Part shown: positions 1,718 to 37,258 of the stretch, one piece after another
Position numbering within the stretch: position 1 is the first letter of the stretch
Layout of the letters: every line of letters begins with the position of its first letter
From: Phytoactinopolyspora mesophila
Lineage (GTDB): Bacteria > Actinomycetota > Actinomycetes > Jiangellales > Jiangellaceae
Direction of reading: 5' to 3'
Assembly: GCF_010122465.1 (NCBI RefSeq)
Contig: NZ_WLZY01000007.1
Span: 286,934-350,933 of the forward strand
Length of the DNA: 64,000 nt
Program-made: the position numbers and the translations under genes
The notes under the pieces: model-generated
The model's input: only the letters and a program-made list of their open reading frames with translations
Databases searched by the model: none
Told to the model about the DNA's origin: nothing

Positions 1718-2830
1718 TCAGCGTAGGCCCAGCGGCCGTTTGAGCGCGGTGGTGATCATCCGGTCCACCAACGCGCCGTAGTCCAGTCCCGACTTCTCCC
1801 ACAGCATCGGGAACATCGATGTAGGCGTGAAGCCGGGCATCGTGTTGACCTCATTGACGACGACGCTCCCATCCGGGCGCAAGAAGAAGTCGACCCGGGC
1901 CAGGCTCTCACACGACAACGCCTTGAACGCCGCCACAGCCATCCGGCGCATCCGCTCGGAGACCCCGGCCGGGACGTCTGCGGGGATGTCGAGCTGGACG
2001 TCGTCCTCGGGCAGGTACTTCGCCTGGAAGTCGTAGAACTCATGCGAGTCGTCGAACCTGATCTCGCCCAGCACACTCGCGTCGGGCTCGGCGCCGGAGA
2101 CGCCCTCGAGTACGCCGCATTCGATCTCGCGGCCGACGATCGCCTCCTCGATGATCACCTTCGGGTCGTGCTCACGGGCTGCCAGCACGGCGGCGTCCAG
2201 ATCACCCGGCTCGGCCACTTTGGCCACACCCATGCTGGAGCCAGCGCGGGCGGGTTTGACGAAGACCGGCCAGCCGAGCTCGTTGACCTCGGCACTCACT
2301 CGCTCCCGTTGCGGCTCCCAGTCCCCCGGCTCGACCAGCACATGCCTGGCTACCGGCAGCCCGGCGCCGCGCAGCAGGATCTTCATGACGTGTTTGTCCA
2401 TGCCGGCGGCCGAGGCAAGAACTCCGGATCCGACATAGCGCACGCCCGCCATCTCGAGCATGCCCTGGATGGTGCCGTCCTCGCCGTAAGGCCCATGCAG
2501 GAGCGGAAAGACGAGGTCGACGGCGCCCAGCTCACGAGGCACCTCTCCGGGCGACTGCTCGATCAGGCCGGAGCCCGCCGGCAGCAGCACGGTGCCGCCT
2601 TCGTCGCTGACCTCCGGCAGCCGGCCGTCGGTGATGGCCAGCTGGTCAGGTTTACCGCTGGACAGCACCCAACGGCCTTCGAGCGTAATGCCGACGGGCA
2701 CGACGTCGTAGCGCTCCGGATCCATCACGGAGAGCACGCCGCCCGCGGTGACGCAGGAGATCGTGTGCTCCGAGCTGCGGCCTCCGAAGACAACAGCGAC
2801 CCGGATGCGGGGTAGCGGTGTGGGGTTCAT
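1718..2830 (-). CDS. ddl: D-alanine--D-alanine ligase
   Basis: Joins two D-alanines using ATP for the peptidoglycan pentapeptide; cytosolic ATP-grasp enzyme. The 370-residue length is typical of the long actinobacterial Ddl. Visible motifs are FGGRSSEHTISC near the N-terminus, HGPYGEDGTIQG (about 114-125), the ATP-grasp lysine region KPARAGSSMGVAKV (about 193-206), RVDFFLRPDG and the Mg-binding NEVNTMPGF near 333-341. The ATG at 2830 is the only start in keeping with the N-terminal strand RIRVAVVFGG. It lies in the same direction as gpsA and plsC, about 90 bases downstream of gpsA. Confidence 0.95.
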   Translation of the reverse strand: MNPTPLPRIRVAVVFGGRSSEHTISCVTAGGVLSVMDPERYDVVPVGITLEGRWVLSSGKPDQLAITDGRLPEVSDEGGTVLLPAGSGLIEQSPGEVPRELGAVDLVFPLLHGPYGEDGTIQGMLEMAGVRYVGSGVLASAAGMDKHVMKILLRGAGLPVARHVLVEPGDWEPQRERVSAEVNELGWPVFVKPARAGSSMGVAKVAEPGDLDAAVLAAREHDPKVIIEEAIVGREIECGVLEGVSGAEPDASVLGEIRFDDSHEFYDFQAKYLPEDDVQLDIPADVPAGVSERMRRMAVAAFKALSCESLARVDFFLRPDGSVVVNEVNTMPGFTPTSMFPMLWEKSGLDYGALVDRMITTALKRPLGLR

Positions 2831-2917
2831 CGTCGCACGACCCTATCTCAGTACTCGGTGTGACGTTTTCACGGCCATTGTGCCGGTGTCACGGCTGCGC
2901 CCGCGTGGATAGCGCCG

Positions 2918-3943
2918 TCAGTGTCCATGACGTTCAGGCTTGGCCGAACGGGACAGCAGCGAGCGCAACATGTCCTGCGGCGTGATCTCGCCTTGGACCA
3001 TTCTGGTGACGTGCTCGACGATCGGCATGTCGACCCCTGACCGGCCGGCGAGATCCAGGATCGATTCACACGACTTGACCCCTTCGGCCACCTGGCGCGA
3101 CTGTGCGGCCGCTTCGTCCACGCTCATTCCCTCCCCCAGCCGCTCGCCGAAGGTGCGGTTACGCGACAGTGGTGAGGTGCACGTCGCCACCAGGTCACCC
3201 AGACCGGCCAGGCCGGAGAACGTGTACGGGTCGGCGCCCAGAGCTTGCCCCAGCCGGGCGGTCTCGGCCAGCCCCCGGGTGATGACGCTGGCCCGGGCGT
3301 TGTCACCGAATCCCAGTCCGACGGCGATCCCGACGGCCAGCGCGATCACGTTCTTCACCGCGCCGCCCAGCTCCGTCCCTACGACGTCGGTGTTCGTGTA
3401 GGGCCGGAAATGCGTGGTGTGGCACATACTCTGGACCCGGCGGGCCAGCTCATCGGTGTTCGCTGCGACAACGCTGGCGGCCGGTTGCCGCTGCGCGATC
3501 TCGCGGGCAAGATTCGGCCCGGAGACAACGGCGATCCGGTCCACGCCCGCGCCGGTGACCTCGGCGATCACCTCGCTCATCCGGTCGGCGGTGCCGATCT
3601 CGATGCCTTTCATCAAGCTGACCAGAATCGCATCCGCCGGCAGCGTCGACGTCCACTGCGTCAGGTTGGCCCGTAGGCTCTGAGACGGCACGGCCAGCAC
3701 CACGAGGTCCGCCCCGGCCGCCGCCTCGCCCGGGTCGGTGGTCGCCCGTAGCGTGGGCGGCAGCTCGATCCCGTCGAGATAGTCGGCGTTCACGTGGTCC
3801 CGGGTGATCGCCTCACACAACTCTGGGCGCCGGGCCCACAACACCACGTCGGCGCCCGCATCGGCCAGCACCATCGCAAACGCCGTACCCCACGATCCCG
3901 CGCCGAAGACCGCCGCTCTGGGATGACCGCTGGCCGAGGTCAT
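2918..3943 (-). CDS. gpsA: NAD(P)-dependent glycerol-3-phosphate dehydrogenase
   Basis: Reduces dihydroxyacetone phosphate to sn-glycerol-3-phosphate for phospholipid synthesis; cytosolic. 341 residues. An N-terminal Rossmann motif [17 protein letters not shown] (about 14-30) is followed by [12 protein letters not shown]. The C-terminal helical domain carries the catalytic-lysine region [18 protein letters not shown] and [13 protein letters not shown]. The ATG at 3943 overlaps the plsC stop by four bases (ATGA), so plsC-gpsA is translationally coupled. This fits a shared role: gpsA makes the backbone that acyltransferases use. Confidence 0.95.
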
Positions 3944-23504: not shown

Positions 23505-25007
23505 TCAGGCGCCAACGGCCACAGCCGCATCCTCGGGATCCGGAACACGGCGCAGGCTCTTCAGGCCGATCACACACCCGGCGGTGACGACCGCGCCGGC
23601 GACGATAGCCAGCAGGTACAGTGCCGGCTGGCCGATCAGGCCGATGACCCAGATGCCTCCGTGCGGCGCACGTAGCGTGTTACCGATGCCCATCACCATC
23701 GCACCGGTGACGGCCGAGCCGGCCATGATGGACGGGATCACCCGCAACGGGTCGGCGGCGGCGAACGGGATGGCTCCCTCGGTGATGAACGACGCCCCCA
23801 GCAGCCATGCGGCACGGCCGTTTTCCCGCTCGGCGCGACTGAACAACCGCTTGCGGACGACGGTGGCCAAGGCCAGGCCCAGCGGTGGTGTCATCCCGGC
23901 GGCCATCACCGCCGCCATGATGATCAGGTTGGTGCTGTCCGCCGCCGTGGCAGCACCGGCCAGCCCTGTGGTGGCGAACGTGTAGGCCACCTTGTTGACC
24001 GGTCCGCCCATGTCGAAGGCCATCATCAGACCCAGAAGCGCTCCGAGCAGAACCATGTTGGCGCCGGTCAGGCCGGTCAGCCAGTTCTCGAGGCCCGACG
24101 CGGCCGCGGACAGCGGAGCGCCCAGCAAGACCAGCATGACCAGGCCGGTCACCGCGGTGGCCACCAGCGGGATCACCACCACCGGCATCACACCGCGCAG
24201 CGCCTTGCCGACGGGTATCCGGCTGATCCACAAGGCGGTGAACCCGCCGACGAATCCGGCCGCGATGCCTCCCAGGAAGCCCGCGTCCACGGCCAGCGCG
24301 AGCGCGCCGCCCACAACACCGGGCGCCAGCCCGGGCCGGTCGGCAATGGCGAAGGCGATGAAGCCTGCCAGTATGGGGACGAGAAACCCGAATGCCGCCG
24401 CGCCGACATGAAAGAAGAGCGCAGCCCAGCTGGTGGAAGAGAAGACATTGAAGTCTTCGACGACGCTGCTCAGCTCCACGTCGACGATTTCGTATCCACC
24501 GATCATGAAGCCCAGCGCGATCAAGATCCCACCAGCGGCGACAAACGGGATCATGTAGCTGACACCCGTCATCAGCCACTGGCGGATCCGGGTGCCTACG
24601 CCCGCCCCGGGCGTCACCTTGGTGGCCAGGGCTGCCGGCTCGGCCTCTGGTGCTACAGGCGACGTGCCCGGCGCGCCTGCCTCCGCCATCACAGCGGCAG
24701 ACTCACGTGCCACCTGTTCGGCTTCGCTGATGACGTCGGCAGCGGCCGAGATGGCGCGTTTGACGCCGACATCGACCAGGGGCTTGCCGTCAAACCGGCC
24801 GCGGTCGCGGACTTCCACGTCCGCGGCGAAGATCACCGCGTCGGCGGCGGCGATGGTCTCCGCGGGCAGCGGCGACAGACCGGCGGAGCCTTGGGTCTCG
24901 ACGGTGATCTCGTGCCCGGCGGCCCGTGCGGCCTGTTCGAGGGCCTCCGCGGCCATGTAGGTGTGCGCGATGCCCGTCGGGCACGAGCTGACGGCGACGA
25001 ATTTCAC
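23505..25007 (-). CDS. fruA: PTS fructose transporter, fused EIIB-EIIC
   Basis: Membrane permease that takes up fructose and phosphorylates it to fructose-1-phosphate. 500 residues. The N-terminal EIIB domain (1-100) begins MKFVAVSSCPTGIAHTYMAA, with the phospho-acceptor Cys9. An Ala/Glu linker (110-130) leads to the EIIC domain of eight or more helices, with VSYMIPFVAAGGILIALGF, FDMGGPVNKVAYTF and ITEGAIPFAAADP typical of the fructose EIIC. The ATG overlaps the EIIA stop by four bases. EIIA is supplied by the separate gene upstream; HPr and EI are not in the window. Confidence 0.95.
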   Translation of the reverse strand: MKFVAVSSCPTGIAHTYMAAEALEQAARAAGHEITVETQGSAGLSPLPAETIAAADAVIFAADVEVRDRGRFDGKPLVDVGVKRAISAAADVISEAEQVARESAAVMAEAGAPGTSPVAPEAEPAALATKVTPGAGVGTRIRQWLMTGVSYMIPFVAAGGILIALGFMIGGYEIVDVELSSVVEDFNVFSSTSWAALFFHVGAAAFGFLVPILAGFIAFAIADRPGLAPGVVGGALALAVDAGFLGGIAAGFVGGFTALWISRIPVGKALRGVMPVVVIPLVATAVTGLVMLVLLGAPLSAAASGLENWLTGLTGANMVLLGALLGLMMAFDMGGPVNKVAYTFATTGLAGAATAADSTNLIIMAAVMAAGMTPPLGLALATVVRKRLFSRAERENGRAAWLLGASFITEGAIPFAAADPLRVIPSIMAGSAVTGAMVMGIGNTLRAPHGGIWVIGLIGQPALYLLAIVAGAVVTAGCVIGLKSLRRVPDPEDAAVAVGA

Positions 25008-25456
25008 GACGGCACCACCTCTCGGTTGACGATGCCGGCCACGGTGGCCGCATCGGGCGCGGACAACAACGCGTCCTTGAATTCCTGGTTCATCAGCTTC
25101 CGGGCCAGCGCGGCCAGCATCTTCAGGTGTTCGGTGTCTCCGCCCTCCGGGGCGGCGATCAGGAAGATCAGCCGCGCCGGGCCGTCGTCGGCGCCGAAGT
25201 CGACGCCGTCAGCCGAACGTCCGAAGCCGAGCGTCGGCACGACTACATGTGCGCTCTTGGCATGCGGGATCCCGATTCCACCGGGTAACCCGGTGGGCAT
25301 CTGCTCCTCACGGGTTCGCACGTCGGCGAGGAAGCCGTCGAGGTCGGTGACCCTGCCTCCCGTGAACAGCCGCTCCGCCAGCTGCCGGGTCACGGCATGC
25401 CGGTCACCGGCGCCCAGATGGAGTTCGACGAAATCCTCGGTGATCAGGTCGGTCAT
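25004..25456 (-). CDS. PTS fructose-type EIIA component
   Basis: A 150-residue soluble EIIA of the fructose/mannitol class that passes phosphate from HPr to the EIIB cysteine. The active-site histidine lies in GGIGIPHAKS (about residue 65), and FLIAAPEGGDTEHLKMLAALA follows. The ATG at 25456 is preceded by GAGGAGGCC. A longer frame to 25630 runs into fruK and is rejected. It sits between fruK (16 bases) and fruA (4-base overlap). Confidence 0.93.
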   Translation of the reverse strand: MTDLITEDFVELHLGAGDRHAVTRQLAERLFTGGRVTDLDGFLADVRTREEQMPTGLPGGIGIPHAKSAHVVVPTLGFGRSADGVDFGADDGPARLIFLIAAPEGGDTEHLKMLAALARKLMNQEFKDALLSAPDAATVAGIVNREVVPS

Positions 25457-25472
25457 AGTGGCCTCCTCGGCC

Positions 25473-26486
25473 TCATTCGGAAACTGGATACGAAGGATCG
25501 GGATCGGTGTCCACACGCACCTGAACACCCGCGATGTCTTCGGCGGCCGGCATCCGGCTGCCAGGCAGCGTGACGGCCGCGGTCCCCCAGGCGACGGCCG
25601 TCTCCAGGGCAGCCGCGCCGGAGCCGTCAACCGAGCCGGTCACCGCACAGAGATATCCGGCCAGCAGCGCGTCGCCCGCACCGACGGTGCTGCGTGCAGC
25701 CGCGGCCAGGCCGGCACTCGCGTGGACCGGCGGACGTCCGGCACGCACCAGCACCGCGCCGTACCGGCCCAGGCTGACGACGACGGTCCGGGCCGGTCCC
25801 GGCGCGCCGTCACCACCACGTGAGGGCGGGGGCACTGCCCGATCCCCGAGCGCTAGCAGCCGCCGGGCAGCGTCCACTACGTCACCGAGCGTCCGCAACT
25901 GCCGGCCGTCGATCTCGCTCAGCTCGTGGACGTTGGGCTTCATCAGGTCCGCGCCGGCCCGCGCCGCGTGTAGCAGCGCTGGTCCCGACGTGTCGATCGC
26001 CACCGGGACGCCATGCCGATGGCCCAGCTCCACCAGGCGGGCATGGAAGTCCGGGCTGATCCCGCCCGGCAGGCTCCCACAGCCCACCAGCCACGCGGGC
26101 GACCGCGCGAGTGTCGCCGCGACACCGGCGAGCAACCCCGTGCGCTCGCCGGCAGTGAGAACCGGACCGGGCTCGTTGAACTTGGTGGTGGTGCCGTCGG
26201 GCTCGGTGATGGTGATGTTCGCGCGGATCGGCCCGGTGATCGGCACCGCCTCCACCTCGACACCGCATTCCTCCAGCAGCTCGATGAGCAGACGCCCTTC
26301 CGCACCGCCGAACGGAACCGTGGCCACCGCCTTGGCGCCGTTGACGGTGAGCGCGCGGGCGACGTTGACGCCCTTGCCGCCGGGATCGATCTGGGTGGAG
26401 CGTCCATGGTGGACGCGGCCCCGCTCCACCCGGCGCACGCCGATGGAGCGGTCGACGCTTGGGTTAGGAGTGACGGTGACGATCAT
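25473..26486 (-). CDS. fruK: 1-phosphofructokinase
   Basis: Phosphorylates fructose-1-phosphate to fructose-1,6-bisphosphate, feeding glycolysis. PfkB/ribokinase family, 337 residues. N-terminal VTVTPNPSVDRSI and the PfkB signature GGKGVNVARAL; C-terminal ATP/catalytic motif STVGAGDALLAGYL with the base aspartate. A Gly/Pro-rich insertion near residue 225 (RGGDGAPGPA) lengthens it beyond the usual 310. The start lies three bases after the fruR stop. Second gene of the fru operon. Confidence 0.94.
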   Translation of the reverse strand: MIVTVTPNPSVDRSIGVRRVERGRVHHGRSTQIDPGGKGVNVARALTVNGAKAVATVPFGGAEGRLLIELLEECGVEVEAVPITGPIRANITITEPDGTTTKFNEPGPVLTAGERTGLLAGVAATLARSPAWLVGCGSLPGGISPDFHARLVELGHRHGVPVAIDTSGPALLHAARAGADLMKPNVHELSEIDGRQLRTLGDVVDAARRLLALGDRAVPPPSRGGDGAPGPARTVVVSLGRYGAVLVRAGRPPVHASAGLAAAARSTVGAGDALLAGYLCAVTGSVDGSGAAALETAVAWGTAAVTLPGSRMPAAEDIAGVQVRVDTDPDPSYPVSE

Positions 26487-26489
26487 GGC

Positions 26490-27251
26490 CTACGCCCGGA
26501 TCACTCGGGGTCCGGCCGCTTCGATCTCGGCCGCGGTCTCGTCGTCGAGGCCGGCGTCAGTGATGATCGTGTCGACGTCATGGATAGGTGCCACGTGCGC
26601 GAAATGGTCCGTGCCGATCTTGGTGTGGTCGGCCAGCACGACGGTGCGCCGGGAGGACTGAACCATCGCGTGCTTGGTGGCCGCCTCGGTCTGGTCGGCG
26701 GTGGTGAGCCCGCGTTTCACGGACAGTCCGTTGGTGCCCAGGAACGCGACGTCGGCGAACACCTCCGCAAGCGCCCGGACCGGCCACTCTCCCACTCCGG
26801 CCAGGGTCACCCCCCGGACCCGCCCTCCCACCAGGTAGAGGGTGAGGTTCGGCCGGTTGGCCACGATATTGGCGATGGACAGCGAGTTCGTCACCACGCG
26901 CAGCTCGCGGTCGAACGGCAGCTGCTCGGCCAGCCGGGCCGTCGTGGTCCCCGCGTCCAGCACGATGGCGCCGTCCTCAGGGAGCTCGGCCACTGCGGCC
27001 TTCGCGATACGTTCTTTCTCCGCGACCAGGCGATCCTCGCGTGCCGCGACGGCCGGCTCGAAGCCCAGCCGCTCCACCGGAACCGCGCCGCCGTGCACCC
27101 GCCGGAGCACACCGTGCCGCTCCAGCAGAGTGAGATCACGCCGGACCGTCTCCGCCGTCACATCAAGCTCGGTGGCCAGTGCCGCGACCTCGACCCGGCC
27201 GTGCGCCCGGGCGCGGTCGAGGATGAGCTGCTGTCGCTCCGCTGCGTACAC
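26490..27251 (-). CDS. fruR: DeoR-family fructose operon repressor
   Basis: Repressor expected to sense fructose-1-phosphate. 253 residues from the GTG at 27251, which has GGAGG upstream; an ATG at 27353 is rejected as it adds 34 unrelated residues. The N-terminal DeoR helix-turn-helix (YAAERQQLILDRA ... LDVTAETVRRDLTLLERHG) is followed by the isomerase-like sensor domain with LDAGTTTARLAE, VVTNSLSIAN and AFLGTNGLS. First gene of fruR-fruK-EIIA-fruA. Confidence 0.9.
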   Translation of the reverse strand: MYAAERQQLILDRARAHGRVEVAALATELDVTAETVRRDLTLLERHGVLRRVHGGAVPVERLGFEPAVAAREDRLVAEKERIAKAAVAELPEDGAIVLDAGTTTARLAEQLPFDRELRVVTNSLSIANIVANRPNLTLYLVGGRVRGVTLAGVGEWPVRALAEVFADVAFLGTNGLSVKRGLTTADQTEAATKHAMVQSSRRTVVLADHTKIGTDHFAHVAPIHDVDTIITDAGLDDETAAEIEAAGPRVIRA

Positions 27252-27275
27252 CGGACCTCCAAACGCAGATGATCG

Positions 27276-27313
27276 GAATGATTCAGAAACATTCAGATGT
27301 TGTTTTGCATCTG
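27276..27313. promoter_or_regulatory. Candidate FruR operator
   Basis: ATTCAGA is repeated directly 10 bases apart (27281-27287 and 27291-27297). CAGATG and CATCTG then form an inverted repeat around TTGTTTTG. The DNA is AT-rich and lies 30-60 bases upstream of fruR, as expected for a DeoR-type operator or promoter. Confidence 0.4.
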
Positions 27314-27373
27314 TTTTACGCCCGCGTGACGGCCACGTCAAGAGATTTCCCACACGAACCCACAGAACCGGGC

Positions 27374-27543
27374 TAGGAACCCGCGCGAATAGGGACGCCG
27401 GATAGTGAGCGGGGTCGGGCGCCTGGAGGGCAAGGCGGAGGAAGGAGTCGCACTGGGTTTGTGCGTCGACTGACTTTCAACGTAGCCCTCCAGGATGTCC
27501 GGGCTCGCGAGCCCGGCGACTCCCTATTCGCGCGGGTTCTAAG
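27374..27543. repeat. Inverted-repeat element, MITE-like, copy 1
   Basis: About 170 bases. Outer arms share AACCCGCGCGAATAGGGA (27378-27395) with its reverse complement at 27521-27538; inner arms CCTGGAGGGC (27422-27431) and GCCCTCCAGG (27485-27494) pair too. It has no coding capacity. The right end matches copy 2 at 33.6 kb in 28 of 29 bases. Confidence 0.7.
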
Positions 27544-27748
27544 TTCAACGCTCGTGGCCGCCGCGTCGCACCCGCTTGGGCAGCTCACTCACCAGCAACA
27601 GCAAGCTCACGATCACCGATCGTCGGCAGCCGGGTTTCAAAGGCTCATCCTCCGGCCGGCCCCGCCGGAGGAACTGGGTAGGCCACCAACTCAGCGCGAG
27701 TGCCGGTTAGGCTCCTCGCAGACACGACACGTCAGGAGCGGCAGGCGG

Positions 27749-28813
27749 ATGGCGAAACGACCGACGGTGTACGACGTCGCCGCCGAGGCGGGCGTCTCGA
27801 TCGCGACGGTCTCGTTCGCCTTCACTCAGCCACACCGGGTCAAGTCGTCGACGCTCGACGCCGTCCTCGACGCGGCCGACCGCTTGGGCTACATCCCGAG
27901 CGCCAGCGCTCGTGGTCTCGCCAAGGGCCGCACCGGCGCCCTGGGCCTGTACGCCTACGACTACCTCGTCGACGCCAGCTTCGACGTTCGCGGCGACAAC
28001 GCCCCATCGAGCGGCGACGACGGCCGTCTCTTCCCGCTGTACGTCGACGAGGTACAGCGCGGCGTGCAGTTGGAATGCTGGGATCGGGGACTGGCACTCA
28101 TGATCGGAGGAGCCCGGACCACCGACCACGTGCGGCGAGTCACCGATATCGCCGGCCGCGTCGACGGCTTGATCTGCTTCGCCGGAGCCGTAGACCTCGC
28201 TGTGCTCGAGTCGCTTTCGGAGCGCATTCCCGTTGTAGAACTGGGTAGTGCGGTCAGATCCGCGCAGTTGCGGACGGTCATGGTGGACAACCGGACGGCG
28301 ATGCGCGAACTCGCCCTCCATTTGACCCGGCACCACGGGCTACGCAGGATCGAGTACTTCGGCGGCGCCGGTACCGCAGAGTTCACACAGCGCTGGGACG
28401 GCTTCGTGGAGGCGATGCACGACGCCGGCGAGACGCACCGGGCAGCTTGGCCGAGCAGGCCTGGCTACGCGGCAACCACCCGCGAGTCGCTCGACGAAGT
28501 GCTGTCCGCGGGCCAACACCCGGAAGCCATCGTCTGCTCGACGGACCAGGAGGCGCTGGTTGTCCTCGACCGCCTCCACGAGCTGGGCATTCGCGTGCCG
28601 CAAGACATCGCCGTGACCGGCTTCGACGGCATACTCGCCACGCAGACCGCCTCGCCCGCGCTGACCACGGCGCGCCAGCCGATGGAGGAGATCGGCCGCG
28701 TTGCGGTCCGTGAACTCCTGGACGCCCTCGACGGCAGGCAGGCTGACCACGGCGAACCTCTGCCGACCCAGGTGGTCATCCGGCGCAGCTGCGGCTGCGG
28801 CCCCACGGACTGA
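27749..28813 (+). CDS. LacI-family regulator of the GH43 cassette
   Basis: A 354-residue sugar-responsive repressor. The helix-turn-helix is RPTVYDVAAEAGVSIATVSF (residues 4-23), with a hinge RLGYIPSASARGLAKGRT. The periplasmic-binding-like domain follows, with VCSTDQEALVVLDRLHELG and VTGFDGI near the C-terminus and a final CGCGP. It carries an unusual acidic insertion (GDNAPSSGDDGR) near residue 85. The ATG at 27749 is the conserved start; longer readings run into the inverted-repeat element. A palindrome between it and the transporter is its likely operator. Confidence 0.88.
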   Translation: MAKRPTVYDVAAEAGVSIATVSFAFTQPHRVKSSTLDAVLDAADRLGYIPSASARGLAKGRTGALGLYAYDYLVDASFDVRGDNAPSSGDDGRLFPLYVDEVQRGVQLECWDRGLALMIGGARTTDHVRRVTDIAGRVDGLICFAGAVDLAVLESLSERIPVVELGSAVRSAQLRTVMVDNRTAMRELALHLTRHHGLRRIEYFGGAGTAEFTQRWDGFVEAMHDAGETHRAAWPSRPGYAATTRESLDEVLSAGQHPEAIVCSTDQEALVVLDRLHELGIRVPQDIAVTGFDGILATQTASPALTTARQPMEEIGRVAVRELLDALDGRQADHGEPLPTQVVIRRSCGCGPTD

Positions 28814-28854
28814 CCGACAACTCATTCCGTTCGCCGTACCTCTTGTGCATCTGC

Positions 28855-28872
28855 AATCTATGCGCTTAGATT
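28855..28872. promoter_or_regulatory. Candidate LacI operator
   Basis: AATCTATGCGCTTAGATT is an 18-base palindrome with a central GCGC and one mismatched pair. It is placed 66 bases upstream of the solute-binding protein start and downstream of the LacI gene stop. The central CG is usual in LacI operators. Confidence 0.6.
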
Positions 28873-28938
28873 TTGCGAACATCCATGACGGTGACGCGCA
28901 GATCCGGGGGCGACGCAGCCCCCGAGATAGGAACGGCC

Positions 28939-30219
28939 ATGATCCGACGTACCTCTAAGAGGCCCTGGCAGACGGGGCCGGTCCTCCTCATCGCCGGCGC
29001 GCTGATACTCGCCGCCTGCGGTCGCAGCGAGGAGACCACAGGCGCCTCCGACGCCGCCAGCTTGGACGACGCCCCCGCGAGCGGTTCGCTGACCATCTGG
29101 GCGCAGGGAACCGAGGGCGAGGCACTCCCCGAGCTGGTCGAGCAGTTCGAGGCGGAGAACCCCGACGTGAAGATCGACGTCACGGCGGTGCCGTGGGACT
29201 CGGCGCAGAACAAGTACCAGACCGCGATCGCGGGTGGGAACACCCCGGACATCGGCATGCTCGGCGTCGACTGGATTCCGACGTTCGTCGACGCACTCGA
29301 GCCGACACCGGAGGATATAGATCTCGACGGCATGTTCCCAGGGGCGGTCGAGTCGACCCAGTTCGACGGCACGACCTACACGGTGCCGTGGTACGTCGAG
29401 ACTCGGGTCGTCTTTTACCGGACCGACCTCATGCGCGAGGCCGGATTCGACGAGTTCCCCGACGATTGGGAGGGTTTCAAGGCCCTCGCCGCGGCCTACC
29501 AGGACAACGGAGCGCGCTACGGCGTCGGGCTGCCGTCCGGCGGGTGGAATGCCTTCTTGGGCGGTATGCCGTTCGCCTGGTCCAACGGCGCGGAGCTGAT
29601 GACCGACGACGGCAGCGAATGGACGATCGACACCCCCGAGATTCTCGAGGCTGTCGAGTACCTCAAGACCTTCTTCGACGAGGGCATCGCCACCAAGAAC
29701 CCGGACTCGACGTCGGGACCCGCCGCCGACCTGGTCTCCGGTGACGTTCCGATGATGATCAGCGGCCCATGGGACGTCGGCCAGATCATGGCCGCCGGAG
29801 GTGAGGGCTTCGAGGACCAGTTCGCCGTCGCCCGGATCCCTGGTGTCACGAGCAGCACCTCCCTCATCGCGGGTGCCAATCTCGCTGTGTTCGAGGGGTC
29901 GGAGAACGTCGAATCGGCGTGGAAACTGATCCGCTGGCTCTCTGAGCCCGAGGTACAGCAGGAATGGTTCGAGCTCACCGGCGACCTGCCCTCGCAGATC
30001 GAGGCGTGGGATACACCTGCACTGAGCGAGAACCCGCTCGTCGCGGTCTTCGGGGAGCAGCTCGATGACGTCCGCAGCCTGCCGATGGCCACGACGTGGC
30101 CGGAACTCTCTGCCGCCGCCGACACCGCGGTCGAGCAGATCTACCGGGGCGGCAAGGACGCCGCGCTCGCTTTGGAGGAGTTGCAGGCGAGCGCCGACTC
30201 CCTCGGAACCGGTCGATGA
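28939..30219 (+). CDS. ABC sugar transporter solute-binding lipoprotein
   Basis: Extracellular sugar-binding protein of the family-1 (MalE-like) type, 426 residues. N-terminal signal with basic MIRRTSKRP, hydrophobic VLLIAGALILA and a lipobox cysteine (AACGRS). The body shows SLTIWAQGTEGEALPELVEQF, ending with a C-terminal alpha/beta lobe. Captures an oligosaccharide and passes it to the two permeases. The ATG at 28939 follows TAGGAA. Its stop overlaps the first permease by four bases. With GH43 downstream, a xylo- or arabino-oligosaccharide is the likely ligand (inferred). Confidence 0.9.
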   Translation: MIRRTSKRPWQTGPVLLIAGALILAACGRSEETTGASDAASLDDAPASGSLTIWAQGTEGEALPELVEQFEAENPDVKIDVTAVPWDSAQNKYQTAIAGGNTPDIGMLGVDWIPTFVDALEPTPEDIDLDGMFPGAVESTQFDGTTYTVPWYVETRVVFYRTDLMREAGFDEFPDDWEGFKALAAAYQDNGARYGVGLPSGGWNAFLGGMPFAWSNGAELMTDDGSEWTIDTPEILEAVEYLKTFFDEGIATKNPDSTSGPAADLVSGDVPMMISGPWDVGQIMAAGGEGFEDQFAVARIPGVTSSTSLIAGANLAVFEGSENVESAWKLIRWLSEPEVQQEWFELTGDLPSQIEAWDTPALSENPLVAVFGEQLDDVRSLPMATTWPELSAAADTAVEQIYRGGKDAALALEELQASADSLGTGR

Positions 30220-31160
30220 CGCTGCTGCGCCAGCCTCGCGTCACGGGCGCCGGCAGGATCGCCGGCGCCCGTCGTCGCGGAAGTACCGCACGACGCCGGG
30301 CGACTGTCGTCGCATATCTCTTCGCCCTGCCGTTCATCGCGAGTTTCGCGGTGTTCATGGTCTTCCCGGTGCTCGCCTCGCTCGGAATGTCGTTCACCGA
30401 CTTCACCAATCGCGACATCCAGAATCCGACGAGTGTCAACCCGGTCGGCTTCCAGCAATTCTCCGCGTTGCTCTCGAATCCGCAGTTTCTGCGGTCAGTA
30501 CTGAACACGGTCTACTTCGTCGGCGTCGGTATCCCGCTCACCATGGTGATCGCGCTCGCGCTCGCGGTCGCTTTGAACTCGGGGATCAACCGGTTCCGCA
30601 CCGCATTCCGAGTCGGGTTCTTCGCTCCAGTCGTCACCAGCATCGTCGCCGTCGCGGTCGTCTGGAGGTTCATCCTGCAGCCGGACGGCCTGCTCAACGA
30701 GGCGCTGGCGGCTGTGGGGATCACCGGCCCGAACTGGCTCGGCGATCCGGCGTGGGCAATGCCGGCGATGATCATGATGGCGGTCTGGCGCAGCGTCGGG
30801 ACCCTCATGGTGATCTTCATCGCCGGCCTGCAGAACATCCCGCAGGAGGTTCTCGAGGCCGCCGAGATCGACGGCGCCGGACGGGCGCAGCGGTTCTTCC
30901 GCGTCACACTGCCACTCATGCGCCCGACGCTCCTGCTCGGCGCGGTGCTGTTATCGGTCGGGTTCCTGCAGTTCTTCGAGGAGCCGTTCGTGATGACCCG
31001 AGGCGGACCACTCGACGCAACCTTGTCGATCAGCTACTTCACGTACAACCAGTTCGGCTTCGGCAATTTCGGGCTCGCCTCTGCCGCCAGCTACCTGCTC
31101 TTCGTTGCGATCGCACTGCTCAGCCTCGTGCAGTTCCGACTCTTCCGCTCCAAGGACTGA
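30216..31160 (+). CDS. ABC sugar transporter permease (MalF-like)
   Basis: Integral membrane subunit of 314 residues with six predicted helices. A basic N-terminus (RRRGSTARRRAT) precedes the first helix AYLFALPFIASFAVFMVFP. The EAA loop EAAEIDGAGRAQRFFRVTLP binds the ATPase. Starts at the ATG overlapping the binding-protein stop. Forms a heterodimer with the next permease. No ATPase gene is nearby, so a shared MsiK-type ATPase encoded elsewhere is expected, as in other actinobacteria. Confidence 0.92.
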   Translation: MTLLRQPRVTGAGRIAGARRRGSTARRRATVVAYLFALPFIASFAVFMVFPVLASLGMSFTDFTNRDIQNPTSVNPVGFQQFSALLSNPQFLRSVLNTVYFVGVGIPLTMVIALALAVALNSGINRFRTAFRVGFFAPVVTSIVAVAVVWRFILQPDGLLNEALAAVGITGPNWLGDPAWAMPAMIMMAVWRSVGTLMVIFIAGLQNIPQEVLEAAEIDGAGRAQRFFRVTLPLMRPTLLLGAVLLSVGFLQFFEEPFVMTRGGPLDATLSISYFTYNQFGFGNFGLASAASYLLFVAIALLSLVQFRLFRSKD

Positions 31161-31162
31161 CC

Positions 31163-32020
31163 ATGACCGCACCACCGCTCGCGACCCGGCGGCGCCAAGA
31201 CCGGGTGCCGTTCGTACGGGCCGTCACGTACGCCGCCCTCATCCTCGCCGTCGTGGTGACACTCATCCCGTTCGCCTGGATGTTTCTCGGCGCTTTCAAG
31301 ACCGACGGGGAGCTGATCCGACGGCCGATCACCTGGTGGCCCGACCAACCCACGATGGAGAACTTCGTCACCTGGTTCACCCGGCTTGACTTCGGCCAGT
31401 TCTTTCTCAACAGCTCGATCGTGGCCGTCGCCACCGTGCTGGGCAACCTGATGTTCTGCTCGATGGTCGGGTACGCACTCGCCAAGATCGATTTCGCGGG
31501 CAAACGTGTCTTGTTCACGCTGGTGCTGATCACCCTCATGATCCCGGGCGTGGTGACGTTCATCCCGCTGTTCGTCGTCGTCAGCAAGCTCGGAATGATC
31601 AGCACGTACCCCGCGCTGATCCTGCCGTTCCTCGCCAGCCCGCTCGGCGTGTTCCTCATGCGCCAGTTCATGCTCGGCATCCCGGACGCGCTGCTGGAAG
31701 CGGCCCGCATCGACGGCGCCGGCGAACTCCGCATCTTCCTGCGGGTGGTGATGCCGCTGTGCGGCCCGGCGCTGGCGACGCTTGCGATCCTCACCTTCCT
31801 GGGATCGTGGAACAACTTCCTCTGGCCGCTCGTCGCGGCGCAGAGTGAGGACATGTACACACTGCCGGTCGCTTTGTCGCTCTACTCGGTCGGGCAGAAC
31901 GCGACGAACTACGGCGTTCTCCTCGCCGGATCGGTCTTGGTGATCACCCCGATCCTCCTCTTCTTCGTCGCGCTCCAGCGCTATTTCATCCAAGGCATCG
32001 CAACAGTAGGGGTCAAGTGA
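31163..32020 (+). CDS. ABC sugar transporter permease (MalG-like)
   Basis: Second permease of the importer, 285 residues, six helices. N-terminal RAVTYAALILAVVVTLIPFAW, then the periplasmic FKTDGELIRRPITWWP loop of the MalG class, and the EAA loop EAARIDGAGELRIFLRVVMP. It ends with RYFIQGIATVGVK, which is typical of this subunit. It begins two bases after the first permease and its stop overlaps the GH43 start by four bases, so the genes are one transcript. Confidence 0.93.
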   Translation: MTAPPLATRRRQDRVPFVRAVTYAALILAVVVTLIPFAWMFLGAFKTDGELIRRPITWWPDQPTMENFVTWFTRLDFGQFFLNSSIVAVATVLGNLMFCSMVGYALAKIDFAGKRVLFTLVLITLMIPGVVTFIPLFVVVSKLGMISTYPALILPFLASPLGVFLMRQFMLGIPDALLEAARIDGAGELRIFLRVVMPLCGPALATLAILTFLGSWNNFLWPLVAAQSEDMYTLPVALSLYSVGQNATNYGVLLAGSVLVITPILLFFVALQRYFIQGIATVGVK

Positions 32021-33501
32021 CAATGACAGATACAGTCCTCCCAGCCCAGGCTGCCGCCATGGCGCAACGTCCGATCATCGCCGGCTTCCATCCGGATCCG
32101 AGTGTTTGCCGCGTCGGCGGCGACTACTACCTGGTGACATCGTCGTTCGAGTATTTCCCCGGCGTGCCCATCTTCCACAGCACCGACCTGCGACGCTGGC
32201 GACAGATCGGCAATGTGCTGGACCGTGCCCCGCAATTCCAGCCGGGCCACCCCAGCAGCGGCGGGATCTTCGCGCCGACGCTGCGGGCGCACGACGGACG
32301 GCTGTGGATGGTGACCACCGACGTCTCCGGCCAGGGCGGCCAACTGATCGTCACCACCGACGATCCCTCCGGGCCGTGGTCGGACCCGGTGCGCGTCGCG
32401 GCTGCCCGCGGCGTCGACCCGGACATCGCCTGGGATGAGACCGGGCACGCGATGATGACCTGGTGCTCCTCCGCGCCGGAGCTCCGCGGCATCGTCCAGG
32501 CGCACGTGGACCCGGCCTCCGGGGAGTTGCTGGAAGAACCCAGGAAGATCTGGTCCGGCACCGGCCTGGCGTTCCCGGAGGCGCCCCACCTGTACCGGAT
32601 CGGCGGCTGGTGGTACCTCATGATCGCCGAGGGCGGCACCGAGCGAGGCCACTGTGTCTCGATTGCCCGGTCGCGTACGTCCACCGGGCCGTTCGAGCCG
32701 GCGCCGGGAAATCCGATCCTCACGCACCGCAGCACCGCTGACCCCGTGCAGAACACCGGCCATGCCGACCTCGTCCAAGGACCCGACGGTGAGTGGGCCA
32801 TGGTCTACCTCGCCGTACGCCCGCGTGGCATGACACCGATGTTCCACGTCAACGGCCGCGAGACCTTCCTGGCCGGAGTGAGCTGGCACGACGGCTGGCC
32901 ACAGGTCGACGAACACCGCTACCCCGTCGCCGAAGCCGACCACGACATCGACGACGATCTCCGCGCCGGCCCATTGCACCCCCGGTGGATCTCACCCGAT
33001 GCCGAGCCCGGCAAGCTCGTGTCGGTCGACGGCGACGACGTGCTACTGCGCGGCCGGGACGGGCCCGGGCTGCTGGCGACCCGGGTCCGCGACGAGCACT
33101 GGACCACACGGGCCGACATCGACCCGCGTGACGCGGTGGCCCGCCTGGTACTGCGCATCGACGACCACCATTGGTACGCCGTCGAGGCCGACGCCGCCGA
33201 GGTCCGTGCCACGGCACGGATCGGGCCGCTGGAGAGCATCGTTGGTCAACAGGTCCGGGCGGCGCCGGGCCCACTCACCCTCGTGATCCGCAGTGTGTCC
33301 GCAACCCAGCAAGGTCCAGACGACATCGAGCTCGGTGTCGAGGAGCGACCCGGCCAGATCACCACCTTGGCGAGGCTTGACGGCCGCTACCTGTCCACCG
33401 AAGTCGCCGGCGGGTTCACCGGACGGGTGATCGGGGTGGAATCACGGCGCGGCGATTCGCGGCTCCTGCGGTTCCGGTACACGTCGGCCCCCGGCACCTG
33501 A
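32017..33501 (+). CDS. Glycoside hydrolase family 43 (beta-xylosidase/arabinofuranosidase-like)
   Basis: Intracellular inverting glycosidase (no signal peptide), cleaving oligosaccharides brought in by the importer. 494 residues. A five-bladed propeller domain (1-290) has the base Asp27 in FHPDPSV, Asp134/136 in GVDPDIAWDE and the acid Glu188 in FPEAPHLY, as in family 43. The C-terminal beta-sandwich (about 310-494) is the usual GH43 partner domain. The GTG at 32017 overlaps the permease stop (GTGA). Substrate specificity, xylan or arabinan, cannot be settled here. Confidence 0.9.
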   Translation: MTMTDTVLPAQAAAMAQRPIIAGFHPDPSVCRVGGDYYLVTSSFEYFPGVPIFHSTDLRRWRQIGNVLDRAPQFQPGHPSSGGIFAPTLRAHDGRLWMVTTDVSGQGGQLIVTTDDPSGPWSDPVRVAAARGVDPDIAWDETGHAMMTWCSSAPELRGIVQAHVDPASGELLEEPRKIWSGTGLAFPEAPHLYRIGGWWYLMIAEGGTERGHCVSIARSRTSTGPFEPAPGNPILTHRSTADPVQNTGHADLVQGPDGEWAMVYLAVRPRGMTPMFHVNGRETFLAGVSWHDGWPQVDEHRYPVAEADHDIDDDLRAGPLHPRWISPDAEPGKLVSVDGDDVLLRGRDGPGLLATRVRDEHWTTRADIDPRDAVARLVLRIDDHHWYAVEADAAEVRATARIGPLESIVGQQVRAAPGPLTLVIRSVSATQQGPDDIELGVEERPGQITTLARLDGRYLSTEVAGGFTGRVIGVESRRGDSRLLRFRYTSAPGT

Positions 33502-33554
33502 CGCCTAGGCGATCTTCAGGGCAACCTCAAGCGCGCCACATGATCCGCATCCGA

Positions 33555-33607
33555 TAGAACCCCGCGCGAGTAGGGGGCGGCGACTCCGTATTCGCGCGGG
33601 TTCTAAG
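33555..33607. repeat. Inverted-repeat element, copy 2 (short form)
   Basis: TAGAACCCCGCGCGAGTAGG pairs with TATTCGCGCGGGTTCTAA across a short GGCGACTC centre. It lies 53 bases after the GH43 stop. It matches the outer end of the 27.4-kb element, suggesting a deletion derivative. It may also work as a terminator. Confidence 0.7.
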
Positions 33608-33636
33608 CCGAACGCGACTGGTAGCAGATTCGCAAC

Positions 33637-34677
33637 TCACATGCGGTCCGGGAGCCCGAAGAGCGCGGCGTGCTGCGCGCCCACGAACGACGTCACCTCG
33701 GTAATGCTGGCGCCTCGCAAGCTCAGCACGTTGACCGACCAGCTCAGGTGTGCACCGGCGGCGTCGTCCCAGAGGTAGCACGCCACCGCCGGCTGCCCGT
33801 TGGCGCTGGTGGGAAGGTGGCGCCAAGAACCGCAGCCGGTCAGCGGCACACGGACGGCGAAGTCCATCACAGCTTCGAGGCCGCGATACCAGTGGGCCAT
33901 CGGCGGCATCGACCAGGTGACGTCCTCGGTGAGCAGGGCTACCAGCGCGTCAGCGTCCCCGCGCTCCAACGCGGAGGCAAACCCGGCCACGATTTCCCGC
34001 ATTCGGGCGTCGCCGATCTCACCCAGAGTCTGCTGCTGGCTGGCCGGCGGCACCTTCTCGGCAATGATCTTTCGTGCCCGCTGCAAGGCGCTGTTCACCG
34101 AGACGACGGTGGTATCCATGACCGCGGCGATCTCGGCAGCGGAGAATCCGAGTACCTCGAAGAGCACCAGGGCCGCACGCTGGTTGCCCGGAAGGTGCTG
34201 CAACGCGGCCACGAAGGCGAGCTCGACCGCCTCGCGCTGATCGTAGGCCGCGGCTGGTCCGGCCGGCCCAGCCGCGAGGCCGGCGTCAGGATAGGGCCCC
34301 AGCCAGGAGATGTCCGTCAGCGGGACGTCCCCGACCACCGCCCGTTCGCTTGCCGGGCTGAGGTCGACGGGCAACGCTCGTCTGCCGCGAGACTCCACCG
34401 TGTCCAGGCAGGTCCGCGTCGCTATCGTGTAGAGCCACGAGCGTAGCGAGCTGCGGCCCTCGAACTTCTCAAAGCCACGCCACGCCCTGATCAGCGCATC
34501 CTGTAGGGCGTCGTCGGCGTCGTGTGCCGATCCGAGCATCCGATAACAGTGGGCGTGCAGCTCACGGCGCATCGGCGCCACGAGACGACTGAAAGCCTCG
34601 TCATCTCCTTCGCGCGCCCGAGATAGCTCGGCGGCATCCACGCCGCCGCCCGGATCTATTCCAGCAACGTCCCTCAT
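33637..34677 (-). CDS. ECF-type RNA polymerase sigma factor with SnoaL-like C-terminal domain
   Basis: Sigma factor of the SigG-like type, 346 residues. Region 2 spans about 15-85 (FSRLVAPMRRELHAHCYRML, DADDALQDALIRAWRG), region 4 about 150-205 (LPGNQRAALVLFEVLGFSAAEIAAVMDTTVVSVNSALQRAR). A C-terminal SnoaL/NTF2-like domain (about 225-340) replaces an anti-sigma factor as the probable on/off control. The start is uncertain: ATG 34677 gives MRDVAGIDPGGGVD, and an ATG at 34725 would add 16 residues. No anti-sigma gene is adjacent. Confidence 0.87.
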   Translation of the reverse strand: MRDVAGIDPGGGVDAAELSRAREGDDEAFSRLVAPMRRELHAHCYRMLGSAHDADDALQDALIRAWRGFEKFEGRSSLRSWLYTIATRTCLDTVESRGRRALPVDLSPASERAVVGDVPLTDISWLGPYPDAGLAAGPAGPAAAYDQREAVELAFVAALQHLPGNQRAALVLFEVLGFSAAEIAAVMDTTVVSVNSALQRARKIIAEKVPPASQQQTLGEIGDARMREIVAGFASALERGDADALVALLTEDVTWSMPPMAHWYRGLEAVMDFAVRVPLTGCGSWRHLPTSANGQPAVACYLWDDAAGAHLSWSVNVLSLRGASITEVTSFVGAQHAALFGLPDRM

Positions 34678-34784
34678 GAGCCAGAAGTCTATTGCCGAGC
34701 ACTGACACGGTGCCGGGAAGCGCACTGGTCCGCTTCCCGGGGGGCTTCAAGTGCAACCACCGCCGCCAGAAACGGCTTCCGGTC

Positions 34785-34797
34785 CGAGGTAACCTCG
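34785..34797. promoter_or_regulatory. Palindrome upstream of gdhA
   Basis: CGAGGTAACCTCG is a perfect 13-base palindrome 107 bases upstream of the gdhA start. It may be a regulator site; it overlaps only a weak GlnR-like half site (GTAAC), so the regulator is unknown. Confidence 0.3.
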
Positions 34798-34894
34798 CAT
34801 TGACCGGCCGGCATCGTCGCCGGCCTCGTTGATTGCGCCCTTCAGCACCGGACATCGCCGTTCCGGCGGGCTTTCCCTCGCTCCGATCACATGA

Positions 34895-36253
<1,359 letters not shown>

Positions 36254-36301
36254 CGACGACGAACACTCCGGCCGCAGCGGGGCAGCACCAAGGGCTGCCG
36301 A

Positions 36302-37258
36302 TCAACCGGTGCTTGCGTCCAGGAGCCGGCGGCCAAGCCCTTGAGCTGCTGCCCGGATCTCAGCTGAGCCGACGATCCGGTAGGGGACGTCGAGCAGCGC
36401 AAGCTGCTCGACGTACCATCGCGGGTTGCTCGTGGTGGCGACCAGACGTGTGGTGTGAGCACCGGCCGCCTCGCGACAGCCAAGGCTGCGCGGCAGCCAT
36501 CGCGCAACCGACTCCGGCGGTGCGTCGATGACCACTTCGACGTCGTACTCCCAGCCGACGGCCAGGTGCTCCTCGAGTGTCTCGACCGGATCCAGCTCGG
36601 CAGGCGGAGTGAACGACACATCGAGTTCGGCCACGTCGATGACGCGGTCGACCCGGTATGTGCGCACCGCCTCTTTATCGCACGACCAGCACAGCAGGTA
36701 CCACCGTCCATGGCGGACGACCACGGCCCATGGGTCCACCTCACTGACCCATTGCGAGCCGGCCTCGGAACGGTAGCCGAGCCGCACCCGCCGCCGCTTC
36801 GAACAGGCCAGCACGAGAGCGGTGGTCGTTTCTGGATCGGGCCTGGCAGCCGCGCGGTCAGGGACAGGCGCCGCCGTCCTCCGGACCGCCTCGGCCTGAG
36901 CCGCCACCGACTCAGGAAGCGCACGCACGATTTTGCCCATCGCGCTACCGACGAGATCGGTGGGGTCGCTGGCGTCGTGGTGGCCGTCGAGCACCGCCAT
37001 GACCAGACTCAGTGCCTCGGCAGCACTGAACATCAGCGGTGGCAGCCGCAGGCCCCGGCCGACCCGGTATCCGCCGTACGGGCCGCGGACCGCTTCGATC
37101 GGAATGCCGGCCTCGCGAAGGATGCCGGTGTACCGCCGGGCGGCACGTTCGGAGACACCGAGCTTGTCCGCCAGCCGGTCCGCGGTGATTCCGGGGCTGC
37201 CTTGAATCAGTTCGAGGGCCAGCAGTGCCCGCGCCGTGGGACTCGTCTCGGTCCGCAT
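36302..37258 (-). CDS. WYL-domain transcriptional regulator (YafY-like)
   Basis: A 318-residue regulator. The N-terminal DeoR-like winged helix (ALLALELIQGSPGITADRLADKLGVSERAARRYT) is followed by a WYL domain with RRVRLGYRSEAGSQWVSEVDPWAVVVRHGRWYLL and a C-terminal WCX-type segment. WYL domains bind nucleic acid or nucleotide ligands; several respond to DNA damage, but the target here is unknown. Convergent with gdhA (48 bases apart) and in the same direction as the HAD gene downstream. Confidence 0.88.
   Translation of the reverse strand: MRTETSPTARALLALELIQGSPGITADRLADKLGVSERAARRYTGILREAGIPIEAVRGPYGGYRVGRGLRLPPLMFSAAEALSLVMAVLDGHHDASDPTDLVGSAMGKIVRALPESVAAQAEAVRRTAAPVPDRAAARPDPETTTALVLACSKRRRVRLGYRSEAGSQWVSEVDPWAVVVRHGRWYLLCWSCDKEAVRTYRVDRVIDVAELDVSFTPPAELDPVETLEEHLAVGWEYDVEVVIDAPPESVARWLPRSLGCREAAGAHTTRLVATTSNPRWYVEQLALLDVPYRIVGSAEIRAAAQGLGRRLLDASTG

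Follow-up and report, generated by a model that had tools for sequence, protein, structure and literature searches.

Palindromic repeats flanking a LacI-ABC-GH43 operon in Phytoactinopolyspora mesophila are very probably separate insertions of a MITE-like element with a conserved cap

In Phytoactinopolyspora mesophila, a five-gene catabolic cassette stands between two related inverted-repeat elements, which raises the question of whether the cassette moved as a unit or whether a small non-autonomous element inserted twice. A first-pass annotation of the window (the whole stretch of 64,000 nucleotides analysed here) had left both alternatives standing. Its bracketed unit was confirmed by Pfam, which identifies all five cassette genes listed below. 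Both repeats are real and lie where they had been placed, as a 19-bp inverted repeat and a shared 29-mer confirm, with their ends now refined. The features of the locus are as follows.

26490–27353 (−): DeoR-type regulator, divergent left neighbour of the long copy
27374–27376 (no strand): left target remnant TAG (row L034; with TAA on the right side, 2/3 bases are equal)
27377–27539 (+): long (complete) palindromic element with GAACCC...GGGTTC ends, 163 bp
27377–27395 (+): perfect 19-bp left arm of the terminal inverted repeat
27430–27482 (+): structured GA-rich cap region of the long copy, GCAAGGCGGAGGAAGGAG-hairpin-CGACTGACTTTCAACG
27521–27539 (+): perfect 19-bp right arm of the terminal inverted repeat
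27540–27542 (no strand): right target remnant TAA
27749–28813 (+): regulator of the LacI family, which opens the cassette
28873–30219 (+; start provisional): extracellular solute-binding protein
30216–31160 (+; start provisional): ABC permease
31166–32020 (+; start provisional): ABC permease
32017–33501 (+): glycosyl hydrolase family 43 (GH43)
33557–33603 (+): short copy of the element, 47 bp
33637–34725 (−): sigma-70-family sigma factor (regions 2 and 4) with a SnoaL-like domain, convergent right neighbour of the short copy

The long copy, which sits between divergent genes, folds strongly (27360–27560: z = −6.5, with 0/200 shuffles equally stable), and the open reading frames listed over it only enter from outside, none being a recognised gene. 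The right strand of its cap reads TTTC where most other copies have GAC or GAG; TTTC also occurs in L037 of the same genome, and TTCC in two copies of genome G003. This copy was missed by the cap regular expression and found by model R1 (105.7 bits, match 27401–27513). The short copy has a weak fold (z = −1.8; 9/200 shuffles equally stable), carries no core, and fits a long copy with the middle deleted. With one position left variable, the window has two matches to the 29-mer common to both elements, against none in 100 shuffles. Trinucleotides flanking the short copy, ATA on the left and TAA on the right, were taken as target-site remnants; a perfect target duplication is absent from both window copies (TAG/TAA long, ATA/TAA short).

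Our best reading, in which we have considerable confidence, is that the two repeats inserted separately, each as a non-autonomous, MITE-like palindrome whose complete copies measure about 162 bp. The family is dispersed: a genome-wide search returned 33 arm matches in the P. mesophila genome, against 1 for a reversed control, and 24 copies that bear the core, with near-identical element sequence at unrelated loci. Target duplications of 3 bp are present at the level of the family, where the outer 3-mers are identical in 21/33 own-genus end pairs (shuffled mean 10.4; 0/10,000 as high), all pairs being retained, including a few doubtful ones such as the second pairings of L035 and L124. The own-genus target is C|TNA|G, and 7/10 Butyrivibrio copies likewise have identical outer 3-mers. 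Finally, among 12 genomes of a related genus, one site is occupied in two (G018 and G017) and empty in the seven that were read by sequence, and the comparison reveals a TA duplication at the insertion; the large G021 variants, missed by the regular expression, were read directly. The insertion half of the earlier proposal thus finds support, at family level, in dispersal, target duplications and a relative's empty site.

The other half, in which the two elements would be the ends of a composite transposon that carried the cassette, finds no such support, and we consider it very unlikely. It draws on the fact that precisely one catabolic unit lies between the elements, on cassette neighbours that vary among congeners, and on G003, where two long copies in inverted orientation surround about 6 kb of metabolic genes, a spacing that recurs. 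The P. mesophila genome also has 5 pairs closer than 6.5 kb; the expectation is 2.3, and 8% of trials reach 5 or more. However, the family has about 48 loci in a genome of 6.5 Mb, a density at which chance produces one or more such pairs with a probability of about 0.9, judged by spacing alone (0.43 from the 24 core copies alone). The 48 loci were merged by hand and include fragments; they exclude one low-scoring model match (C10:63469) along with the poorest BLAST matches, and using 49 loci leaves the close-pair result unchanged. The same five-gene cassette occurs in 2/4 congeners (G001, G002) with no element nearby, and the right-hand copy is the coreless 47-bp form. The composite transposon was rejected on these three counts: element density, element-free congener cassettes and the coreless right end. 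No syntenic empty site for the cassette was found among the four congeners, the neighbours found there lying on other contigs, and the outer target bases are uninformative on cassette movement because TAA stands on the right flank of both copies. The bracketing of the cassette is very probably a coincidence, and a pair of such repeats flanking an operon should not be taken as evidence that the operon moves.

The most constant part of the element is its cap, a GA-rich covarying helix in which 95.5% of cells are paired, a value that 0/500 shuffles reach. Covariation is 0.534, compared with 0.197 when shuffled, and slid versions pair at 30–46%; pairing is similar on 74 matches, in an alignment that was fitted to the model. 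The cap is present in 100/393 genomes of the class and also in Firmicutes MAGs, and it is nearly unchanged between Actinobacteria and Firmicutes, while the arms and terminal repeats look unrelated. Many Gram-positive bacteria have the tip hairpin in repeats that otherwise look different. Phages gave no match, and viral contigs no exact match to the cap pattern. In the openly licensed literature, the cap in four spellings retrieved no paper, and the element is not described among the matches listed for MITE, IS5, structured RNA and palindromes.

The arms are asymmetric between strands. Isolated arm mismatches in 119 elements comprise 282 G-T, 37 A-C, 132 G-A, 21 C-T and 130 like-with-like, the copies not being independent; all mismatches were penalised equally, and the 119 are those of 162 fold-back elements that passed the score limit. 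Own-genus elements show this G-T excess only weakly (18 vs 10). The strand that the mismatches favour runs against the replication fork in 30/37 copies from two genomes (p 0.0002), whose origins were placed by sampled skew and dnaA boxes; counting two further copies close to the G182 chromosome ends gives 32/39. For G018 and G015, a weak skew precluded the same comparison.

Strand-specific tolerance of G-T (or U) and covariation would also suit a non-coding RNA. The cap might belong to an RNA gene or cis-regulatory RNA that the elements spread, with selection on the transcript, a reading of the cap only that is compatible with mobility. Many copies do lie at the 3′ ends of genes. In tandem contexts, however, orientation relative to flanking genes shows no clear preference (6 same, 11 opposite, p 0.33; the gene caller was crude, and one copy was scored within an ORF), the preference being relative to the fork instead, and Rfam 15 has no family above its gathering score in the window and 16 loci. 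Sub-threshold miRNA and snoRNA candidates and one near-threshold ZTP riboswitch were set aside. We regard an RNA as possible and lean against it. The fork-relative bias, together with palindromic structure, intergenic position and high copy number, could alternatively point to REP-type or TIR-type palindromes moved by a RAYT or TIRYT tyrosine transposase through single-strand transposition. HUH tyrosine transposases would not be expected to leave the target duplications that accompany insertion here. PMC3733652 links families of long-TIR repeats to RAYT/TIRYT enzymes, but our elements far exceed the 20–40 bp of the REPs described there, and we think this origin improbable. As for ordinary structural palindromes (terminators, regulatory hairpins) that arose in place, 17/37 copies do lie between convergent genes; this origin is nonetheless scarcely credible in view of the relatives' empty site with its duplication, the near-identity at unrelated loci, and the position of the long window copy between divergent genes.

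A partner transposase was looked for within the genus. At the 17 PF13340, PF13359 and PF01609 loci (DUF4096, DDE_Tnp_4 and DDE_Tnp_1) of five own-genus genomes, some of them cut by contig ends, no convincing matching ends and no IS5-type gene with the element's ends were found. A loose end pair at L339 (4/15 mismatches per end, 2.8 kb apart) was taken as chance, and a scan of five DUF4096 loci for TNA-flanked pairs found none; nor did the 26 end matches of a Butyrivibrio genome include an IS-sized pair. Among Streptomyces DUF4096 transposase loci, 2/30 (L130, L137) have paired ends within 3–4 mismatches of 20–21 from local element ends, as raw counts. TNA targets occur in a subgroup of IS5, and CTAG targets are also found within IS5. 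C|TNA|G is the target reported for eukaryotic NuwaII of the PHIS superfamily, to which the authors of PMC4482050 relate bacterial IS5. An IS5/PHIS-like DDE transposase has about an even chance of being the enzyme, a figure discounted because PMC4482050 gives the bacterial IS5 target as ANT, not TNA.

It is very likely, on the whole, that the two window repeats inserted independently of each other and belong to one non-autonomous family of transposable palindromes. Complete copies are built from terminal inverted repeats and long complementary arms, with a conserved cap at the tip; in this cap, tandem G-A steps separate the Watson-Crick pairs, and a covarying hairpin closes them. The enzyme that inserts the element at C|TNA|G, or at CTAG in other genera, would be a DDE transposase of the IS5/PHIS type whose gene lies elsewhere or has since disappeared. 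The cap may act as a folded single strand, with DNA during replication likelier than RNA. Arms would drift yet remain complementary while the cap alters little, and complete copies would decay via deletion between short arm repeats, a process that would account for the 47-bp copy behind the GH43 gene and for scars of 16 bp at other places.

Palindromic repeats of this size tend to be classed as insertion-sequence debris and identified from their ends. In this family the ends vary by lineage and the tip is nearly constant; taken with the covariation and the strand asymmetry, this suggests that the folded single strand has a function; in the openly licensed literature searched, such a function is described for no MITE among the matches listed. 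Tentatively, the elements may form a class of mobile hairpins across phyla, defined by a single-stranded tandem G-A cap and not by their ends. Selection would keep the cap while arms and terminal repeats are swapped or drift to suit the available transposase, and the cap would tie the element to the replication fork, making insertion or survival strand-dependent. This raises the questions of whether the cap binds the transposase or a host replication factor, and whether it explains the spread of repeats without an evident partner IS.

Compared with known systems, the element resembles the prokaryotic MITEs Correia, ERIC, QMITE and Chunjie, which, according to the review PMC10969869, share its size, inverted ends, target duplications, lack of coding capacity, mostly intergenic position, copy numbers in the tens and shortened derivatives. 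It is shorter than 500 bp and non-coding, with terminal inverted repeats and, at family level, a target duplication; a related autonomous IS was not found at the 17 transposase loci. That review gives IS as the main presumed source of MITEs, a related IS being a usual rather than strict feature, and calls MITEs typically AT-rich, whereas our element is GC-rich in actinomycetes. It differs further in a covarying cap kept across two phyla with seemingly unrelated arms and terminal repeats, and in that no source IS was identified. Against IS5/PHIS the comparison is divided: the target equals that of NuwaII but not the ANT that PMC4482050 gives for bacterial IS5, and the element has no transposase of its own. 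REP/BIME sequences with RAYT and TIR families with TIRYT are likewise repeated intergenic palindromes with a single-strand fold, but our element has target duplications, and at about 162 bp its complete copies do not fit the 20–40 bp palindromes, tagged GTAG or CGTC, that define REPs in PMC3733652. The Streptomyces copies (L104–L109), which in most annotated plasmid rows among the matches listed have no annotated feature under the match, differ in their ends and CTAG-type target but carry the same cap and, where complete, are of about equal length.

Two related palindromes flank the lacI-ABC-GH43 cassette of the window, arranged as follows.

27377-27539: long element, a 163-bp palindrome whose 19-bp outer arms are perfect
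33557-33603: short element, 47 bp
between the two elements: cassette of LacI regulator, solute-binding protein, two permeases and GH43 enzyme
left of the long copy: DeoR gene, divergent
right of the short copy: sigma factor gene, convergent

The first-pass annotation described a 29-base right end common to both elements and one five-gene catabolic unit between them; the shared end is present in both, and the gene content was borne out. The long element folds much more stably than its shuffles (z = −6.5), and the short element alone only slightly more so.

The palindromes belong to a dispersed family. A search of the 6.51-Mb Phytoactinopolyspora mesophila genome with the 19-base arm, allowing up to three mismatches, gave 33 hits vs. 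one for the reversed pattern. BLAST with a complete copy gave at least 64 full-length and partial matches at E ≤ 1 (best 40 of 73 candidates scored), and our covariance model of the core (R1) detected it in 24 copies; the GA-rich hairpin tip is called the cap below. Two arm types, GAACCCGCGCGAATA and GAGGCCGCGCAGAAT, are carried on the same core. After hits were merged by hand into 48 loci, fragments included, six neighbour pairs lay within 10 kb (mean 3.3 under random placement). At least one pair closer than 6.5 kb arose in 0.895 of random trials with 48 loci, 0.915 with 49 loci and 0.43 with the 24 core copies alone; five such pairs were observed, a number reached or exceeded in 8% of trials. 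Close pairs are somewhat above their mean frequency yet within chance; the bracketing of the cassette, once proposed to mark a moved unit, needs no special cause.

A DNA search with window positions 25000-37200 in five genus genomes, including its own, found the cassette gene order also in two congeners, G002 (contig C1) and G001 (C29), with long pieces 65-73% identical; such listed matches as correspond to the fru/deoR flank were on contigs other than the cassette's, and none of the four congeners offered a syntenic empty site for the cassette. The 15-16 kb around these two cassettes held no element (matches of 13-31 bases only, best E 0.002), and no comparable full-length cassette was among the matches listed for congeners G003 and G004. 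Elsewhere, two long copies in G003 (L089, contig C12, 3548-3715 and 9775-9943) lie inverted about 6 kb apart around glycerol-kinase-like, amidohydrolase-like and pyruvate-carboxylase-like ORFs, named by reading translations; this is the same coincidence as the window pair, with different cargo. In genome G038 (L070, L090), two inverted copies 2.4 kb apart surround ABC-transporter-like genes (by reading), and another palindrome, starting GAGAGCGCCCGAGGATAG, directly adjoins an element.

The alternative proposal, two insertions of a small non-autonomous element, is supported for the family as a whole by dispersal, target duplications and an empty site in a related genus. Own-genus ends of the form GA(A/G)... 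have TNA on both outer sides, often inside CTNAG. Of 33 own-genus end pairs, 21 have the same outer 3-mer on both sides and 27 the same middle base (means with shuffled right flanks, 10.4 and 13.9; for each, 0 of 10,000 shuffles as high). Target duplication is thereby shown at the level of the family; both window copies have imperfect flanks (TAG/TAA, long; ATA/TAA, short). Among 12 genomes of the related genus, element L084 of G018 also occurs in G017 at the identical site, which is empty by sequence in seven (G021, G013, G019, G012, G015, G010 and G006); judged from matches only, G020 and G014 show matches split by gaps of 11 and 26 bases, too small for the element, and G016 partly lacks the left flank. 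The empty site in G021 reads GGCTC-TAG-GAAAC vs. GGCTT-TA[element]TA-AGAGAC when occupied, a TA duplication at CTAG with adjoining base changes. A near-threshold ZMP/ZTP riboswitch match (L228, 5981-6224; 37.4 bits, gathering 39) spans a Butyrivibrio element; the full model is stretched over 244 bases, an excess of about 158, which would fit an insertion of the element within the riboswitch.

The 47-bp copy aligns to the long copy of L001 minus its middle, with three mismatches when one inserted base is allowed, and we read its breakpoints as lying close to a GGCG common to both arms. Two unrelated loci (L024, L025; 1505-1520) hold just the 16-bp palindrome GAACCCGCGCGGGTTC with TTA on each side, the smallest family remnant seen. 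Short forms would arise by internal deletion, at L024 and L025 between the CGCGCG of each arm. Enlarged forms also occur: at four G021 loci (L360, L361, L362, L363) another palindrome, which holds four GATCAGGTGAC-type repeats, replaces or invades the cap hairpin, and the variants measure about 270 bp. Two Streptomyces plasmid copies (L107, 3036-3304) have cap regions of 77-79 bases vs. 51-55 in the other copies compared, which shows that insertions in the tip are tolerated.

Within the class, R1 matched 100 of 393 genomes, in 28 of 137 genera; nine candidates were scored per genome, so per-genome copy numbers are lower bounds. The exact cap pattern occurred in at least 119 stretches of a named genome collection; the 80 matches listed with names included Streptomyces, Kitasatospora, Nocardioides, Gordonia, Frankia, Jiangella and Propionibacteriaceae, as well as nine loci in Firmicutes MAGs (Blautia, Butyrivibrio, Lachnospiraceae, Peptococcaceae). 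At these nine the cap, as search key, is identical by construction; the long paired arms, outside the key, are present and look unrelated in sequence, and R1, built from actinomycete sequences only, matches all nine. Because one Butyrivibrio genome has 26 end hits, of which 18 form pairs spaced 154-155 bp, and identical TTA or TAA flanks in 7 of 10 copies read, single-contig contamination is unlikely; a MAG binning error could still account for them. Phages gave no match, and viral contigs none to the exact cap pattern; a Streptomyces copy has matches in 57 Streptomyces plasmid records.

Allowing for a few mismatches, the tip has the sequence GCAAGGC-X-GAGGA-R-GGAG, hairpin, CGAC-Y-GACGA-Y'-AACGC. 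In its consensus fold, single Watson-Crick pairs alternate with two-base G-A-opposite-G-A steps, which we take to be the pattern of tandem sheared pairs. Across 25 sequences the X-Y' pair is divided evenly between C-G and G-C (12 each), R-Y is A-U in 12, G-U in 8 and G-C in 4, and the two sides of the cap hairpin stem change together. A MAFFT alignment had 95.5% of cells paired and covariation of 0.534 vs. 0.197 after shuffling; none of 500 shuffles reached its value on any measure, and slid versions had 30-46% of cells paired. The 74 R1-aligned matches gave 95.4% and 0.699 vs. 0.193, in an alignment fitted to the model and leaning towards it. No Rfam 15 family matched above its gathering score in the window or at the 16 loci searched. 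The window copy scores 105.7 bits against R1 and carries TTTC, one base longer than the GAC or GAG of most copies; X-Y' pairs and one G-A step is lost. This variant of the cap's right strand, CTTTCAACG or CTTCCAACG, marks a sub-lineage of the own genome and G003 (window 27467-27482, L037 of the own genome, L081 and L089) in which two G003 copies read TTCC. Since L037 and these two are like it, the window copy is a variant or is partly decayed.

When the arms of 119 elements were folded back with equal penalty for every mismatch type, isolated mismatches were G-T 282, A-C 37, G-A 132, C-T 21 and like-with-like 130. G-T exceeded A-C in 102 elements, the reverse held in 5 and 12 tied, related copies not being independent. 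G-T mismatches outnumber A-C strongly in other actinomycetes (239 vs. 26) and Firmicutes (25 vs. 1), weakly in the own genus (18 vs. 10); no such asymmetry is expected if ends are kept alike solely for a transposase. The cap could act as single-strand DNA during replication, as RNA or in some other way. In the single-contig genomes G182 and G142, with origins inferred from skew and dnaA boxes (G018 and G015 were left out, their skew being too weak for placing an origin), 30 of 37 copies had a folded strand opposed to the fork (p 0.0002); the figure becomes 32 of 39 when two copies at chromosome ends are added and 29 of 36 without near-duplicates. Relative to flanking tandem genes, 6 copies had the same and 11 the opposite orientation, no clear preference, and 17 of 37 lay between convergent genes. 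A fork bias without clear gene-orientation preference, in a sample as small as two genomes, favours single-stranded DNA over RNA; we give the DNA role about an even chance and regard action as RNA as somewhat less likely.

Our reading is a non-autonomous element moved in trans by an enzyme that would be IS5-like, an assignment to which we give about even odds. On six Streptomyces plasmids, two out of 30 DUF4096 transposase loci had paired ends within 3-4 mismatches of local element ends, a resemblance that may be due to chance, and 17 loci of three transposase families in the own genus had no convincing matching ends. About 0.5 kb separates one Streptomyces plasmid copy (L109, 2001-2120) from a gene annotated as an IS110-family transposase (2597-3811), which is probably unrelated.

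Among known systems, the element falls by its size outside the GTAG/CGTC-type REPs described in PMC3733652. PMC4482050 reports C|TNA|G as the target of NuwaII, a eukaryotic group in the PHIS superfamily; its authors relate the bacterial IS5 family to that superfamily and give ANT for IS5 itself. The element's C|TNA|G matches the former and differs from the latter. The element works like a MITE and has the structure of one; a link to a source IS was not found among the three transposase families in the own genus, and what is unusual here is the contrast of a conserved cap with free arms.
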